In this document: piece by piece, positions 2,343-51,985 of the stretch
Position numbering within the stretch: position 1 is the stretch's first letter
How the letters are laid out: every line of letters starts with the position of its first letter
The notes under the pieces: generated by a model
Told to the model about the DNA's origin: nothing
Database searches by the model: none
Seen by the model: the letters and a program-made list of their open reading frames with translations, nothing else
Origin: Tetrahymena thermophila SB210
Taxonomy: Eukaryota; Ciliophora; Oligohymenophorea; Hymenostomatida; Tetrahymenidae
Length of the DNA: 64,000 bases
Reading direction: 5' to 3'
Assembly: GCF_000189635.1 (NCBI RefSeq)
Contig: NW_002476088.1
Span: 1 to 64,000 of the forward strand
Program-made: the position numbers and the translations under genes

Positions 2343-4149
2343 AAAGGAAATATTATTTAATTAATTTATTTTTACATATTAAATTGCCTGTAATCCAAAT
2401 CTATGAGATTCTATCAATAATACCTCAGTAACTCTAATTTTTGTTAGCTATTTTTTTGATAGATCAAACTTCTATCAATAATTCCTAATTCTGAGACATC
2501 AAAAATATCAAAAAGTAATTCTTTTAAATTCCTTTATAAAAAACATAATTCAGTTAAAAAAGTAAGAAAATGCATTATTTTTCAATAAAACAATGTTATT
2601 TATCTATATAGCTCATGAAATAGCAACCGTATTTTCAAAAGCTTATTTGTAAAATTAGAAGTAAAATTAATTGAATTTTTATTTGTACTTGAGCTTTAGT
2701 TTACAATTCAATTATTTCAGTAATTAATTAAATAGTAAAAGGAAGAAGAAAAATTATGATTTTCCCTATTTTATTCTAAATTTATGATATTATATTCTTT
2801 TTTTGGAATACTGTAAATCTAATATTTTAAAATCAAATTATTGTAAGATTATTTGAAAAACTTAGGTATATCAACCAAATAAAAAATTGTATCAAAAAAA
2901 GTATCTTCTGTTATTATAATCTATTATTTTTGTAAGCTTAACTTGGTTTTCTTGATTCATCTACTTAAGTAAGACCCTCTTTTTTAAGTAAAATAAAAGT
3001 TATTGTACCTTTTTTTAAAAGTATAATGTAAAAAGATAACCAAAGCAGAAAAAAAAAATTAATTTAATTTTCATAATCAGCTTAAATATTAATCAAGGTA
3101 TTTAAAATATTTCTTGAATGATTTAAATTTCATAAGAGAAAAATAAGCCAAATAATCTATCTATTTATTTAAAAAGCAAAAAATAATCTTAAAACACAGA
3201 TCTGGTGAAATAGTTAAATAAGTTGTGGGGGATAATAACTACTAATTAATAAAACTTAACCTTAATCAGCTCATTTTGAAAATTTAACTCATTTAAAGGC
3301 ATAAATAAATATTATAAAGTTATTATTATTATTATTATTATTATAACTTAAAGAAAAAATAGTTTTTCAACAACAAACAAACATTCTCATTTTTTTTATT
3401 TAACAAGTAAATAAATTTTTTAACTTTAAAATGTTAATCCTTATAAAGATATAATGTTTGAAAGTTTATTGAAATAATAAAGACAATATTATTAAGTTAA
3501 ATAAAAAATATTTAAAATGTTAAATTATTCAAAATATAAGATAAAATTTTAATTAAACTAAGTTAAAACATTATTTATTATTTATAATATGAATCTATCT
3601 ATTTGATATTAGATAATATAATTATAAAAAAAGTAAATAAAATCACATAAAAAATAATTTAAATAAAAATTCTTTTTATATTTTACCAGCACAAACTGTT
3701 CAAAAGTTTATTTTGTTACTTTTGCAGACACTAATTGTTAAGAATAAGGTTCTCAAAATTCTAAGATTTTATTTATTATAATTTGAGGGTTCTTCTATTT
3801 CTTGGGATTCAAATCTGATTAATCAAATTTTGGATATGAAATATATATTTCTTAATAATTTTAAGATAATTGTATAAAGCTATTTTTTGTATATTTTGTT
3901 TTTCTAAATTATAATATGAGTGCCTGATTATGCCTAAAAGAAAAACTGATACCTTATAATTATAATATATTAATTTCTCATTTGTTAAAATATGAATTTA
4001 TTTGCAATTATTTTGAAGTTAATTTGATGAAAATTTCATATTATAATAAAGTGAGATTAAATTTTATATTGAAAAAAGATTCTAAAATGGTGGAATTGCT
4101 TAGTCTGAAGATAATTTACTCAATACTTTAAAAGTGTATTTTAATAATG
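2343..4149. other. Long AT-rich intergenic region
   Basis: Upstream flank of the MFS-like gene. It is low complexity, with a TTA/ATT triplet run at about 3318-3344. I found no convincing coding frame. Confidence 0.5.
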
Positions 4150-5185
4150 TATTTAAAAATCAAATTATTTAATCTTATGATTTTATTTTATTAGAAATAA
4201 CAGGATAAAACGATTTGCATACAGTTTGTTAAAGGTAAATTTAGTATAAATATCTATGGATCTACTAATTTATTTGAAGGAATTGCATATACTTTTAATG
4301 CTAAATTTGAAGTACCAGTAATTTCTATATCAATAGAAATGTATATTTTGAAATAATTTTTTAAATAAGAAGAAAATTATTTAATTTAATTAATATCAAA
4401 GGTATAAAACATAAAATTCATGGTTTAATCAATATTAGCTTCTTCAATTCTCAAATCAGCTACAATATAATTTAATCTAATAAAAATAAGATATAGCTGA
4501 TTTATATATGAAGTTACAAATGTATTACAAATCTCTCGAAATACTCTATATCTTGAAGATTAATTTTTCAAGAGCTAATTGTTACTAAGTAACCATTCAA
4601 AAATTTTCAGCAATTTTTAATTCTTTATTAATCAGACTCAAAGTTAAAAGCACTTAGCTAAGGAAAAATAAATTCAAAATAACTTGCATGAGGAGGTAAG
4701 AGAGAGATTGTCGTATTTGAAATCTTATTTGTGTAATAAAGTTTATCTAATTTCAATTCTTATGATTAATATTATGTAGAAGTACCAAAGTAGAACTTTT
4801 TCTGAACAAATTAAGTGGTCATGAAACTTTTATAAGATTTAACAAAAAAATTTCAAAAGTAAAATTTACATATTTTAAGTATCTTTTTCCATAAATAACT
4901 AAACCTAGAGTAATCATAGTTGATGAAAATGAAGTTAGACGAGCTGAAATTATATTCAAACTAAAATTCTATGAATCTTAATATCTTTTGTAATTTTTCT
5001 TGGTATTAATATTTTGCATTGCCTATTTGAAAATAGTTTATGTCTTTCTATTTAGTTATTTAGATTTCTTCTCAATATTAATATCACCAAATCCAATGTA
5101 TATATTTTTAAAGGTTTCCTTTATCATTTATTATTTTTAATTTTCAAAAATTTTTGAAATTTTCTCATCAACAAACTTAGAATGA
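4150..5185 (+). pseudogene. Possible gene remnant or unresolved multi-exon gene
   Basis: Three plus-strand stretches are open under the ciliate code but lie in different frames: about 4196-4500, 4501-4816 and 4768-5185. They contain non-AT-trivial residue runs such as GKFSINIYGS, EEVRERLSYLKSYLC and RVIIVDENEVRRAE. The last is followed by strongly hydrophobic segments. I could not join them with GT-AG introns into one reading frame and no clear start was found. It is either a decayed subtelomeric gene or a gene whose introns I did not solve. Family unknown. Confidence 0.3.
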
Positions 5186-6067
5186 AAAAAATAATATTTA
5201 TTATTTCCAGAAAATTTTTAATTATTTATATATTTCATATATATATGTGAAGAAAAATATACAATAATACTTTTATAAATCTTTTAAATACTTAAATAGA
5301 CCTGTTCTCCTTCATCCTAATAATAGAATATTAAAATCTTCTCTTAAGTTTATATCTTTAACTGTATAATCATTATTTTTAAATTTACTTTACATTATAT
5401 AATATGAAGATTATTAATAAAATTAAAAAGTTAATTTAAAGATGTACATTTTTAACATATTACCTTATTGATCTCTCATAATAAGACACTTATTTATTTA
5501 AAATAAAAAAATAGAAAATAATATTATTATTACTATTAATTACTATTATTCAAATTTAAATTAATGATATTTTGCTATAGCATATAAATTAATATCTGAG
5601 AAAGTTTTAGAAAATTGCAAAAGTATTTTTTTTAAATATTTTTTTGGGAATCTAATTTATTTACTTAAAAATATCTTTTTTAAGAGTTGATTTTTATTTT
5701 TGATAAAAATATTTAATTATTAATTTATATAAATTGATTTTTTTTAATTATGATTTTTTAATATTATTTTCTTAGATACTTTTTTTAAATTTTAAATATT
5801 TTAATGATTTTTTTTTTAATGGTGATATTAATTAATTTTGTAGTGATCATATTTAAAATAAACTTACTAATCTAAAAATTAGTCTTTATTTTATTTTTAG
5901 ATGATGAATAGATGGAATTAAAAATAGATAGGGATTATTTATTATAAAAATATCAATTAAGTTTGAATTTTTTTTAATTTAAAATTATTCAAAGAACAAT
6001 ATTTGCAATATGTGTGAATATGAATGTACATTTAAATTAAATTATTTTAGTTTTGTGTTTATTAAAC
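5186..6067. other. AT-rich intergenic region
   Basis: Poly-T rich, low-complexity DNA at the 3' side of the GDT1-like gene. Nothing recognisable. Confidence 0.5.
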
Positions 6068-28647: not shown

Positions 28648-29851
28648 GTTTTTGAAATTAACACCATAATTTTAAAACTAATCAAAAAAAGTTTTTAAAT
28701 TATTATTCTATAAATTTTCCATAATATTATCTTTAAAAACAAATAAATAAGTTTATCTAATAAACATATTTTTTTACAATTATTTCAAAATCAAGCATTA
28801 TATTTATCTAAATGTTGTCGAAATAATTTTTATTTTAAAGCTGAATGATAAAATCATTTCTTTCATATTTTGAAAATTAAACCTATCTTATAAAAATAAA
28901 CATTAAATAGATATTTTTAAAATGTCTACTTCTTCATGTTCGTGAATATAAGTATATTTATTATAAATTTTCAAATCTTATAAATTAAAAATACTTGGAA
29001 ATTGCTTTAGAATAATGTAATTTTTATTAATTAATAAATAAATTTAATTAATCCTTTAATACTTAGAAATTAACTCTAAAGATTATTAATTATATTTTAA
29101 ATTTATATATTCAGAAATCGTTTTGTTCATATTTTGAAAATTAAATTTATCTAATAAAAATTGTGGTAATTGGGTTTATATTTTAAAAATTTTTAATTCT
29201 TCATTTTTATTCTTAGATTTTTGTTTAATTACTTGTTTTTTTGTGAAATATTAGAATATTTATAATTATTTTCAAATTTTATAAATTACAATACTAGATA
29301 ATATTTTTAAATCATTGATTAATTATGAAATGATAAATCTAATTGAGCTTTTAATCTTTTTAAACTACTTCTAAAGCAGATTCATTATTTAATAAAATAA
29401 ATTTCGAATAAAATTTTTAGGTTTTTCTTTATTGATAGATTAATTAAGAAAATAGATTTTTTTTAAATTGAAATTTAAAAATTTTGATTGAAATATTTAA
29501 AGATTTGTATTACTCTTTAATTAAATTTGTTAAACTCAAAAAAAATTGATTGATTGATTCAGAAAAAATATTTGAGTAAAATTACATAATGAATGGTAAA
29601 TTGAATTATTAGGAATATTCAATATCTTTTGTTAAATATAGAACTAATTTTTCAAATATATTTATGTTACTGATCATAATCTATTTAACAAATAATTCTT
29701 GATATGAACAAGCATCACTAAAATAAAATATTCAAAGTTATTATATTTATTAAAAATTATTATTTTAAATATTATAAGTTAGTGATAATTTTTGAGTTAG
29801 AAATAGTACAAGTGAATTCTTAAATTAATTTTTTGAACATAAATTTTGATT
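28648..29851. other. AT-rich intergenic region
   Basis: 1.2 kb between two same-strand genes, low complexity, no feature recognised. Confidence 0.5.
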
Positions 29852-31186
29852 ATGATTGATTCTTAAAGTGAAGTAGAATATGCTGAAATAGGATTTCAAA
29901 CTGATGAAAACAGTATTGATCAATATGATTAACTCGAATCTTACTTTAATCCTACTTATTACTTAAACTAAGAGTTTCTTTTAAATGAGCTATTTTCAGA
30001 TTCTAATGAAGTAAACGAAACAAAAAATAACCCTAAGATTCACTCTCATAGCTTGGGAAATTTAGAAGATTTTTAATCAATTTAAGTGCAAGGCCGTCCA
30101 TAAACTTTTAATTTTTAAATGCTTGATAAGTACGCAGAAGTAAACTAACAAGCTAAAAAACAAACAATGAATATAGGGTAGTTATATATGCAATAGTTGG
30201 AAAAATAAGCTTAGACATTAAAAAAAATAGAATTAAAATTTGCTGTAAATAATGATGAGAGTTAATTTAATCTAAAAAAAGGTTAAAGCATGGGGAAAAT
30301 ACCTATAAAAACAAGTTTGCTAGAATTAGATACTTCTTCTTAACCACAAGCTAACTAGGAATTGAAAAGAGCAAGTTGCTAAAATTATTTTTTAGACTAT
30401 AAAAGCAATAGTAGTATAAGATTTTATGGTAGAAATGATGAAAATATGAGCTAAAAATACAATTCTTAATAACTTTGTTAAACTAATACATTTAATGAAC
30501 ATGCATATATTAAATAGAAATATAAAGGGATAAGCTAACATTCTGCTAATAATTTAGCTTATTAAGAAGAAAATACTACTAAATCTCCAAACAAGAAACA
30601 AATAGTGATTTCGAAAAATATAAGAGCAATGTCTTCTAATTAATAATTTAGATAAAGCTTTCATTATATTAAGTAAGAAGATACAAATAGTCTATAATAA
30701 AACACCAATAATTAACTTAGTATGCTCAAAAGCATGTTTTCAGATTTTCAATAAGAAATTAAATAAAGAGAAATAAATACAGCCATTGATTTAAATAATT
30801 TGCAAGAACAAAAGGCAGAACAGCCAAACAAACCTATTAATCTAACAAATATATTAAATTTGCAAAATTAATTAAAATAAAATCAAAAATCGATTACTGT
30901 TTCTCGGATACCAATCTAATAGTAATAAAAATAGAAGGAGATAGTTAGATAAAGACAAATTCATTCTTCTAAAAAATAATCTTTTGGAAAGTTAATTTAA
31001 TAATAAATTGATAGCAAATTTTAACAAAATCTGACATCTAATTAATCTGAAAATAACATATAGAATTAATATAATTAATAATAAAGCTAGTTATAGAAGT
31101 ATTAAAATTCTCAAAATCTAGGTATTTAGAATTAAAAGCTATTAAGCAATCACAACAAAAATAACTCTGTATCATGCTTAAATTGA
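29852..31186 (+). CDS. Unknown Q/N-rich protein
   Basis: Intronless, 444 codons. The first 70 residues are acidic (Glu/Asp-rich, with QTDENSIDQYDQ), the rest is basic and extremely Q/N-rich with no hydrophobic segments. A short possible amphipathic segment QLSMLKSMFSDFQQEIKQRE lies at about residues 290-310. No family recognised. It ends 99 bp before the left arm of the perfect inverted repeat at 31286. Confidence 0.72.
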
Positions 31187-31632
31187 AATAAAAACTTTTA
31201 TAATATAATATAATTAAAAAATAAAATGCTTAGTTAATATAATATTGTATAAACTATAATTTAAATATTTGCTATTAATTACCATTATATAGTAGATAAG
31301 GGGAATTATTGCCGGTCAACCAATATAAAGAACCATAAAACCAAAAATTTAACGTAAGTTAAATTTTTGGTTTTATGGTTCTTTATATTGGTTGACCGGC
31401 AATAATTCCCCTTATCTACTATATACCATTAAATCAAGTAATTATAAACAAATCAATTTTCAAACTTAAATTTTATTAAAAATTAAACAAATTTTTTACT
31501 AATAATAAACAACAAAGAATTTAAGGCAAATAATTTGCCTAAAATAATAAATTAAAAATATTAATAATAAGGTAAATATTTATTTTAGATAATAAACTCA
31601 TTTACGACATAATTCTATTTGGTTGATATATG
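31187..31632. other. Convergent intergenic region
   Basis: Tail-to-tail spacer between a plus-strand and a minus-strand gene. Besides the hairpin at 31286-31425 it is plain AT-rich DNA. Confidence 0.6.
31286..31425. repeat. Perfect 68-bp inverted repeat with 4-nt loop
   Basis: Left arm 31286-31353, loop GTAA 31354-31357, right arm 31358-31425; the arms are exactly complementary over all 68 positions. The arms are less AT-rich than the surroundings and include TTGCCGGTCAACC. The word TACCATTA occurs at both outer edges (31280-31287 and 31424-31431), which could be a target-site duplication. RNA read from either strand would fold into a long duplex. Confidence 0.97.
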
Positions 31633-33279
31633 TCATTAAAAATGAAGATGCTCAGTAAAATCTTAGCACATGTTGCAATAATATATCAAAGAATCATAGT
31701 CTTCATAAATATATCTGTTAAGAAATTTGCAAGCCTTACAATAATATCCTGACTCTTATTTATTGTTAATTTGCTTTTATTATAATTTTTAGGTATCTTT
31801 ATCAATCTATATTTATTTATTAAAAGGTTCGATTTGTTACTAAGTATTAATATATTATTTAAGATTTATTTCATTCAATATTTCTTATTTTTCATCAAGT
31901 TACTCTTATAATTTTTTAATAATTTTGCTATTTTCTAAAATTATCTTTTCTAATTTTTCAATTTTATTTAGCTGTTCTTTAAATTTATTTTCCATGATTT
32001 CAAATTACTTTAAAGGTTTTTTTTATTAGCATTTTATATATTTTTCAAATTCTTCTTCTTCTTTGATAATGGGAAAGTATTTGTCTTGAGCTATTTAAGT
32101 CCACAATATTTAAAAACACTGCAAATCCTTGAGGCTATCTAAATGAAGGTACTTTTCTTCTAAGTATGTTTCATTAAATAAGCTTTCTAAATTTAACTCA
32201 ACATCTAAAATCCCTTTAAATCTTAAGAGTATTTCATACAAATCTATAAATTAAGTTTGTTCAGGAACCATGAATTATTTAATAGTTTATTGAAAAAAAT
32301 CTTTGTAAGCAAATTAATCTGATTAGCTCATAATTTTAATTATTTCTTCTTAATCATTTTCTTCTTTGAAAGTATTTTAGCTAGATATTAAATTACAAAA
32401 TAGCTTCCCTAAGCTCATACATTATTTTGTATAACCTTATTTAATTTTTGGATTTACAAGTGCTTTATTTAATATCTTCTATAAAATATCTTAATTTTCT
32501 TAATTGTATACAAAACTTAGTTTTTATAAATCATCAAGAAGTCCTTAATTTTCTTAGATGATATCTTTTTATTCCTTAGTTTCATTTTTTAGATAAATAT
32601 TTGGTTTTTCATTATATTCTAAAAACATATTTTCTAGTTTATTCATGCCTGTTTCATTTTCTATCTAGAAAATACAAATTTTAGCATTATTATTATAGTC
32701 TAAAAATATATTTTCTAATTTGATATTTGGTAAGAATATTCCCAGTTTGTTAGCTTAAACTACTCCTTCAAGAATGTCTTTTAAATACTTTATAATAGAA
32801 TTTTCAGTTAATTTTTCTTTGTTTATTAGACATAAAATATTTTCTTAGATCCCAGTTATGCTTATATAATGGTATTAGTATCCTTCAAAGTCGTCGAGGT
32901 ATGAGCAATTATAGAATGAACCAACAAGTTTTTTATAAAGATATATCAGCTTTTAACAGTAAGTTTTTTTATTTTCTAAGAGATTTCCAATTTGATCTTT
33001 GATTCTTATAGCTAAAATAGTATATATGATATCACTCTTCTTTGAGTTTAAAATAAAATCCTCCTACTAATCAGCACTTAATATTTTAAATTAAGTAAAT
33101 TCAAGCTCTTAAAGTTCATTTTAAATAATATCAAAGTTTAATTAATTTTTTAAAAATTAATTTTTATCAGTCTAGAAAGTAGGCCTAATAATTTAAATGT
33201 TATTTTTCAAAATAAATTGCTTATTTTTATTTTTGCTTTCTAAATGGTTCAAAAGCCAGTCATATTAGGAATTTGACAT
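31633..33279 (-). CDS. Pseudokinase-like protein with C-terminal coiled coil and CxxC pair
   Basis: Intronless, 548 codons. The middle (about residues 150-230) aligns by eye with the C-lobe of protein kinases: a helix KYLKDILEGVVQANKLGI, then LPNIKLENIFLDYNNNAKI where active kinases have HRDxKxxNhLh. Here the catalytic HRD is LPN, and the DFG that should follow is FQIE, so phosphotransfer is unlikely. Residues about 425-485 are a coiled coil (EQLNKIEKLEKIILE). The last 40 residues have CKAC and CNMC pairs that could hold a zinc ion. There is no membrane segment. Many ciliate proteins pair kinase-like folds with coiled coils, but this combination is not one I can name. It is head-to-head with the gene at 34679. 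Confidence 0.7.
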
Positions 33280-33706
33280 TTATTTAACTTAAAAATTTAA
33301 ATTTATTTTTTTTAATTACAAAATATAATTATCATTTCATAGATACCAACATTTCTTTTTAAAGAATCGAAATCGAACTCATCAGTAAAAAATTGAATCA
33401 GAATAATCTTTTGAATTAATTATTTTTTCTGAGTAGATTTTATTAATATTTTCTTATCTATCAAATTTATGAAATAGAGGTTTTTGATAAATAAAATTTT
33501 CAATTCTTTTCTAGAAACAAAAAACAAATTATTTAAGATAATAAATAAAATAATACATTTTATTTCATTAAATTGTTTTTTTAAATAAGTCTGATAATAA
33601 TAAAAATTTTAAACTTAAAAATAAGAAAAATATTAAAAATTTATAATTTAAAATGAAGAATCTATTAAAATTTATTTTATTTCATTTAATAGATATATTT
33701 AAATAT

Positions 33707-51151: not shown

Positions 51152-51985
51152 TTATAAAGAATTAACTAATTTATTTAACAAATTTTGTTTGTTGTATAAA
51201 TTAAAATTAAATTTTTAAAGCATTAACTAATTATTATAAACTTAAATGAAATTATTTAATTAGATTTTTTTTATTTTTAAGATCAATTGTTAAAAGGGTA
51301 AATAATATTTATTTTAAGTCATTTAAAAAAAACCAAAACAGAATTATTATTTTTGAATCATCTAAAAATTAAAAAATAATCAGTAATGAATTTTGTTGTT
51401 TGTTTTTAATACTTTATGAGTATTTTTAAATAAATAAATATTTTATTTTTAAACAATAATTTATTCTTTCAGATTAGATTTAGGAATTTAATAACAAATA
51501 TATATATTTTATATTTGATAGCAATTTTAAAAAAATAAATTATTATTTTAATTCGAATAAAAAATTAATATTAAAAAATAATCAGTAATGAATTTTGTTG
51601 TTTGTTTTTAATACTTTATGAGTATTTTTAAATAAATATTTTATTTTAAAAAAATAATTTATTATTTCAGATTAGATTTAGGAATTTAATAACAAATATA
51701 TATATTTTATATTTGATAGCAATTTTTAAAAAAATAAATTATTATTTTAATTCCAATAAAAAATTATTCATATATATCTAGTTATGTTTAACAATATTGA
51801 GATAACTCTTTTAAAAACTAATAATTAATTAAATTTTAGCTAATTTATTGATTTTAATTTAATATTTTTTTAATCTAATGATATAATTATTTTTATTAAG
51901 AATAAATTCAAATATTTATTTTACTTTAAAATATTTTAGATGAAATATACATTAAAATAAATTATGAAGTAAGCTTACAAATATT
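51152..51985. repeat. Convergent spacer with a 202-bp tandem duplication
   Basis: Bases about 51368-51569 and 51570-51767 are adjacent direct copies, nearly identical apart from a 4-base indel (AAATAAATAAATATT against AAATAAATATT) and a few substitutions. Both contain TAATGAATTTTGTTGTTTGT and AGATTTAGGAATTTAATAAC. They are noncoding, in the tail-to-tail spacer between the coiled-coil gene and COQ9. Confidence 0.9.

Follow-up and report, generated by a model that had tools for sequence, protein, structure and literature searches.

Perfect palindromes in the macronuclear genome of Tetrahymena thermophila as probable somatic scars of eliminated transposons

Boundary signals of internal eliminated sequences (IESs) in Tetrahymena have been described at characteristic distances from the deleted DNA. 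At the M IES, a G tract lies 45-50 bp away with its G part proximal (Carle et al. 2016 PMC4780704), and elsewhere G-rich repeats have been reported at a mean of 51 bp and TATA repeats at about 65 bp, the latter at 2700 IESs (Lin et al. 2019 PMC6547420). Tpb2 is reported to leave 4-base 5′ overhangs (PMC3861120). IES ends are described as mostly varying by some bases and Tpb2 IESs as nearly absent from exons (PMC5182062), and for some elements the macronucleus (MAC) appears biased toward keeping the terminal parts of transposons (Hamilton et al. 2016 PMC5182062). A transposon origin of the boundary regulators and of their sites has also been suspected in two papers, and it is an open question why the same inverted signals lie at the same distance on both sides of thousands of unrelated eliminated segments. 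Here we describe a family of palindromes as a concrete example: the positions of the signal, the mobile-element tip, the target-site duplication (TSD) and the proposed cut are each defined at single-base resolution.

The window, by which we mean the whole analysed stretch of 64,000 nucleotides, is read as the end of a T. thermophila MAC chromosome, with telomeric CCCCAA repeats (positions 1-213) where the contig, and with it the chromosome, begins. The host named in the first-pass annotation, Tetrahymena, is supported by a TERT exon of the same genome, whose matching core shows 0 mismatches to the telomerase structure PDB 6d6v, a T. thermophila entry. Two open frames (code 6) converge at the locus, in agreement with the first-pass annotation, which had placed it between two convergent genes. 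The frame on the forward strand (29837-31186) stops about 95 bp before the duplication described below and has no Pfam family at E 0.001, and the frame on the reverse strand (31633-33336) has a weak kinase-like match under the Pfam cut-off. A PDB search with two window proteins and a tRNA scan gave no result, and an Rfam search returned sub-threshold matches only. Elsewhere in the window, a 198-bp unit is tandemly duplicated (51368-51766; 2 copies, 95% alike).

Between the two frames, arms at 31286-31353 and 31358-31425 pair at 68/68 positions around a 4-nt centre, GTAA (31354-31357), which confirms the perfect inverted repeat and small loop noticed at first sight; CCGG and GGTCAACC, said to occur within the arms, were both found there. 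The palindrome was the longest and the only perfect pair among the 25 longest of 91 inverted-repeat pairs in the window, the runner-up among these 25 being 42 nt long and 71% alike. The word TACCATTA, proposed as a possible target-site duplication, is indeed present at the outer edges (31280-31287 and 31424-31431), but as a duplication several copies favour 6 bp, namely ACCATT at 31281-31286 and 31425-31430. A TSD of 8 bp was given up; with a symmetric tip it is exact only in the window's copy. The element between the TSDs is thus 138 bp long (31287-31424) with tips ATATARTAG, and has a left arm of 67 nt on the forward strand (31287-31353; tip ATATAGTAG, inner end TTTAAC) and a right arm of 67 nt on the reverse strand (31358-31424), which is its exact complement. 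In the left arm an AAGGGG tract (31298-31303, forward strand) has its last G 50 bases from the centre and its G side facing the centre, the geometry of Lia3-type boundary signals, and its mirror copy CCCCTT lies in the right arm (31408-31413, reverse strand). On one strand, the centre and the next two bases read GTAAGT (31354-31359), a good 5′ splice site, and the same holds for the centres of the other copies.

We searched the MAC assembly (101 Mb, 445 contigs; C-numbers below denote its contigs, C362 being that of the window) for relatives, and all copy counts are lower bounds. With the 140 bp as query, 11 places were found: five full palindromes (C362, C426, C418, C236 and C206), five single arms (C71, C17, C125, C148 and C189, the solo arms of family I) and one cut copy, C161, which ends at a contig end within an arm. 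A 22-base core, searched with 3 mismatches allowed, gave 15 exact matches in the genome against 1 for the reversed control, and the exact core pattern had 0 matches in viral and prokaryote collections. The tip pattern ATARTAGATAAGGGG had 21 exact matches in the genome, 16 of them within the places already found with the 140 bp, and newly pointed to C75, C156, C300, C308 and C309; the last of these was dropped as a relative, being judged by eye a chance tip match. Arm queries brought in C297 and C94, then C265, C60, C422 and C221, and then C134. In total, the family comprises six two-armed copies, 15 solo arms in four sequence subfamilies and two cut copies (C161, and C193, which is cut by a gap). 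In C300, the sixth two-armed relative, the centre is replaced by an N gap. Nowhere in the MAC assembly did we find two arms enclosing a body.

The first-pass annotation had envisaged a multicopy family with similar flanks. The multicopy family was recovered, as five sequenced palindromes, the gapped relative and the solo arms; the flanks proved unrelated between copies. It had also named an assembly artefact as an alternative, that is, a chimeric or mirrored contig. The assembly is indeed scaffolded with N gaps, one of which takes up the centre of C300, and C161 stops at a contig end inside an arm. However, copies elsewhere stand in unrelated flanks, and unique, differing flanks with matching TSDs on both sides of copies make an artefact very unlikely.

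With the tip taken as ATATARTAG, exact 6-bp TSDs were found at a single offset in C362 (ACCATT), C426 (ATTACT), C418 (GAGATT), C206 (CACGAC) and C300 (TGAACT, on either side and across the N gap), hence in 5/6 two-armed copies and 4/5 sequenced palindromes. In C236 the direct repeat is CACAGCA, off by one base. With a few bases of freedom in the placement of the tip, 5/5 sequenced full copies had direct repeats of 7-8 bp, the chance of a repeat of at least 7 bp being 2.3% per random site pair.

The two arms of a copy showed 0 differences in 65 columns in 5/5 full copies, and the copies differ from each other at 0 to 5 positions; each change therefore sits on both arms. The copies in C418 and C236 are identical over 139 bp and have different flanks. 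For ends that stay alike, the mechanisms usually suggested are conversion of one end by the other and template switching. Among 15 main-family arms, 6 of 65 columns are variable, four of these being in columns 32-42, and judged by sequence the constant outer and inner blocks of the arm are as expected of either binding sites or young copies. Perfect arms, with all differences between the five full copies present on both arms, and a location in the 3′ region of two genes might also be looked for in a gene for a hairpin RNA or in a source of siRNAs, with selection acting on the fold and arms that would form a Dicer substrate. To this explanation we give only a slim chance, as solo arms without a partner are equally well conserved in the main family, no Rfam family was found above threshold, and a rough coding scan places the copies at differing positions with respect to open frames.

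We consider it likely instead that the centre of the palindrome is an IES excision junction and that its arms are retained transposon ends, the whole being a scar that a germline DNA transposon has left in the somatic genome. The family, the TSDs, the common somatic length, the common inner end and the distances on which this reading draws were observed in the analysis itself. In the micronucleus (MIC), a body would lie between two ends of 67 nt each, with a TSD on the outer side of either end, and the left arm in the window would represent the left end. In the developing macronucleus, this germline body would be eliminated as an IES, presumably with Lia3 and Tpb2 as the agents, and both cuts would fall about 67-70 bp inward of the element tips because the boundary signals are located in the ends, the inverted G tract at 50 bp and the TATA tip at about 65 bp from the cut. 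Joining of the ends, with one 4-nt overhang (GTAA) kept, would then produce a perfect palindrome if they are inverted repeats, as they are in the window, while loci with a single arm would represent eliminations whose other boundary lay outside the element. If one Tpb2-type overhang is kept, a centre of 4 nt would result, which fits an excision junction. Inverted signals at the published distances, the G tract at 50 bp and TATA at about 65 bp, lie on both sides of the centre in the palindromes; most solo junctions are without such a pair. Gaps or a contig end lie inside or beside the copies at C300, C193 and C161, so that scars are probably under-counted.

The 15 solo arms of the four subfamilies run from the tip to about 67-76 nt in, as judged by comparison within subfamilies, and so end near the position of the loop. 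Beyond nt 78, 24/26 within-subfamily pairs showed no likeness at p 0.05 (dinucleotide shuffles); the two pairs that remain alike past the inner end, C156-C60 (p 0.01) and C60-C422 (p 0.0075), count against the scar reading. A shortened arm was found in 0/15 solos, although very short remnants would escape the searches. In the five solo arms of family I, the distance from G tract to junction is 50 bp, as in the window, and a mirror C tract across the junction was present in 1/5. TATA was found 55-75 bp beyond the junction at 6/15 solo loci, against a null expectation of 3.8 (p about 0.13). A peak of TATA at 60-75 bp was discarded, as it came from repeated TATAs in a few loci and was gone when counted per locus. 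The mirror signal that the scar reading would lead one to expect across solo junctions is accordingly weak. Most arms of subfamily III have kept a similar inner end with a G tract that is lost or degenerate, so that the G tract cannot be the sole ruler; this, too, counts against the scar reading. Solo inner ends vary by several bases, whereas the centres of full copies are identical in 5/5.

TSDs were also sought at the solo arms. Beside the inner end of the five family-I solo arms there was no direct repeat of at least 6 bp. Farther out, at 80-300 nt from the tip, 5/15 flanks had a six-base match to the left flank (C125, C148, C308, C422 and C134); these matches are AT-rich, and none is preceded by a matching tip except for a low-complexity TATATA at C422.

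Elements of other sequence share both the tip and the somatic length. The pattern ATATARTAG..CTAYTATAT with a total length of 124-152 occurred at 13 places in the genome, of which five belong to the palindrome family, against 2 for the reversed control. At 153-182, the other of the two bins that the length comparison covers, it occurred at 2 places against 6 in the control, and neither of the two has a TSD or similar arms. Among the eight further places of the first bin, C22 (C22:850144) is 141 bp long with the exact TSD CTTATT, C195 is 136 bp long with the exact TSD ATTTTA, C71b is 137 bp long with the repeat GATAAT off by one and unlike ends, and C194 is 136 bp long with similar arms and without a TSD. 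C1 and C417 (137 bp each), C200 (129 bp) and C295 (125 bp) lack both a TSD and similar arms and may be chance matches. Together with the palindromes, a TSD of fixed length is thus found at C362, C426, C418, C206, C300, C22 and C195, shifted by one base at C236 and C71b, and is lacking at C194. Terminal inverted repeats include the common tip ATATARTAG, with arms that are identical in five copies and similar in C195 and C194; in C71b the inverted repeat extends little, if at all, beyond the tip. The whole C71b element, used as a genome query, returned no homologue except itself. Since these elements differ beyond the tip, their common length of 136-141 bp is more readily attributed to the cutting machinery than to the make-up of one family.

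Inward-facing G tracts were searched for as well. AAGGGG N90-118 CCCCTT pairs occurred at 21 places, where the reversed control gave 5; 6/21 are the palindrome family, C300 included, and the others may be ordinary Lia3-type junctions. Of 16 further G-tract pairs that were checked, two are gapped (C193 and C300, the latter a family relative), and the other 14 contained no clear long palindrome, with C22:474924, C33 and C366 barely above the best mismatched control.

The right end of C71b is related past the tip to the solo arm C134, with a score of 48, the highest among 2000 shuffles being 39, and 0 of 1000 dinucleotide shuffles reached the score. Past the inner end, the two show no clear likeness (p 0.12). 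The inner end GGATTA lies 70 nt from the tip in C71b, 72 nt in C134 and 71 nt in C308, which is close to C134 (0 of 1000 shuffles) and shows a weak direct likeness to C71b (p 0.02). Because the ends of C71b are unlike, this element cannot fold as a long palindrome, and breakage at a hairpin tip would not yield C134. A tip-like word (7 of 9) lies 73 bp beyond the junction of C134, which on its sequence could be a worn two-ended copy; in that case the argument from hairpin breakage would not hold, and this too counts against the scar reading.

These observations bear on the possibility that the palindrome is a MITE composed of two fused terminal repeats, which would have inserted ready-made in MAC-destined germline DNA, with the solos as later deletions, for example by cleavage of the hairpin tip. 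In other genomes, elements that are short and non-autonomous and have long inverted repeats are common. An insertion of this kind would account for the TSDs at full copies, the same centre in 5/5, the identical 139-bp copies in the different flanks of C418 and C236, and the copy inside the open frame of C426. It is harder to reconcile with 15 solos that end near the midpoint, with no shortened arm among them, with the solo C134, which hairpin breakage leaves unexplained as its two-ended relative C71b is no palindrome, and with a length of 136-141 bp that is common to elements of other sequence. We therefore regard a ready-made MITE as unlikely, although it is the chief rival of the scar reading. 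Of the foldback element or MITE with a target-site duplication that the first-pass annotation had suggested, the mobile origin and the TSD are retained. A plain foldback element or MITE with a selected hairpin is not preferred as the main reading because of the 15 solos ending near the centre, the common midpoint of C71b and C134, and the equal length of elements of other sequence.

The scar reading itself meets two further difficulties. IES ends usually vary, yet 5/5 sequenced palindromes have an identical centre, read as GTAA or, on the complement, TTAC. Likewise, exonic IESs are reported as nearly absent, yet the C426 copy, which may be exonic, lies in a frame of 995 codons, and with 144 bp it stays in frame. 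Both count against an excision junction.

The copy in C426 (C426:55226-64900, ORF 2942-5929 on the minus strand) adds its 144 bp as 138 bp and the 6-bp duplication, and the scar may be translated. The 995-codon frame has two weak TPR matches, both under the Pfam cut-offs. GTAAGT lies on the sense strand of this copy; an intron from the loop GTAAGT to TATATAG (73 nt) was considered and rejected, as it loses the frame.

In the literature searched, with most subscription papers outside the search, we found no account of macronuclear palindromes as fused transposon ends. Retained transposon termini and the suspected transposon origin of boundary regulators and sites are already in print. If the scar reading is right, it hints that signals for cut sites can come from transposons themselves. 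A more general idea, which we put forward only tentatively and think doubtful, is that the TATA inverted repeats about 65 bp outside deleted DNA (2700 IESs, Lin et al.), the commonest class of boundary signal, are DNA-transposon tips bordered by 6-bp TSDs or derive from such tips. Transposons would then bring their own elimination boundaries, and each elimination would leave a somatic scar of about 137 bp, which would be perfectly palindromic as long as the ends are young. The family also predicts germline loci worth examining, and it cautions that perfect palindromes in a ciliate somatic genome are not necessarily foldback elements or RNA hairpins.

Among described systems, the IESs of the M element and Lia3 class and of the TATA and TACCNT groups (PMC6547420, PMC4780704) resemble the palindrome in that the G tract is inverted, lies at 50 bp and has its G part proximal, in their TATA at about 65 bp and in their mirror symmetry about a somatic junction, which in the palindrome is the proposed one. 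The signals published for them are described as short motifs in flanking DNA, whereas those of the palindrome are part of the termini of a mobile element that has 6-bp TSDs, in a family known here from MAC sequence. The retained transposon termini of the MAC (PMC5182062) are alike in that ends are kept and the body is removed, as proposed for the palindrome; what is described there is a general bias, and fused ends, palindromes, a fixed retained length and a link to boundary signals are, relative to that description, particular to the present family. The IESs of coding regions that depend on Tpb1/Tpb6 (PMC5182062, PMC5666084) share transposon-like ends and a precise junction, but are described as bounded by TTAA, where the palindrome has GTAA at its centre. 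In Blepharisma, MITE-bearing IESs (PMC9942856) are likewise reported as germline elements of a ciliate that are removed in development. Outside the ciliates, human MADE1 is reportedly a palindromic MITE. Elements of this type share with the palindrome two inverted arms, a tiny centre and TSDs, and to these features the present family adds solo arms with a common inner end and relatives of the same length with unlike ends.
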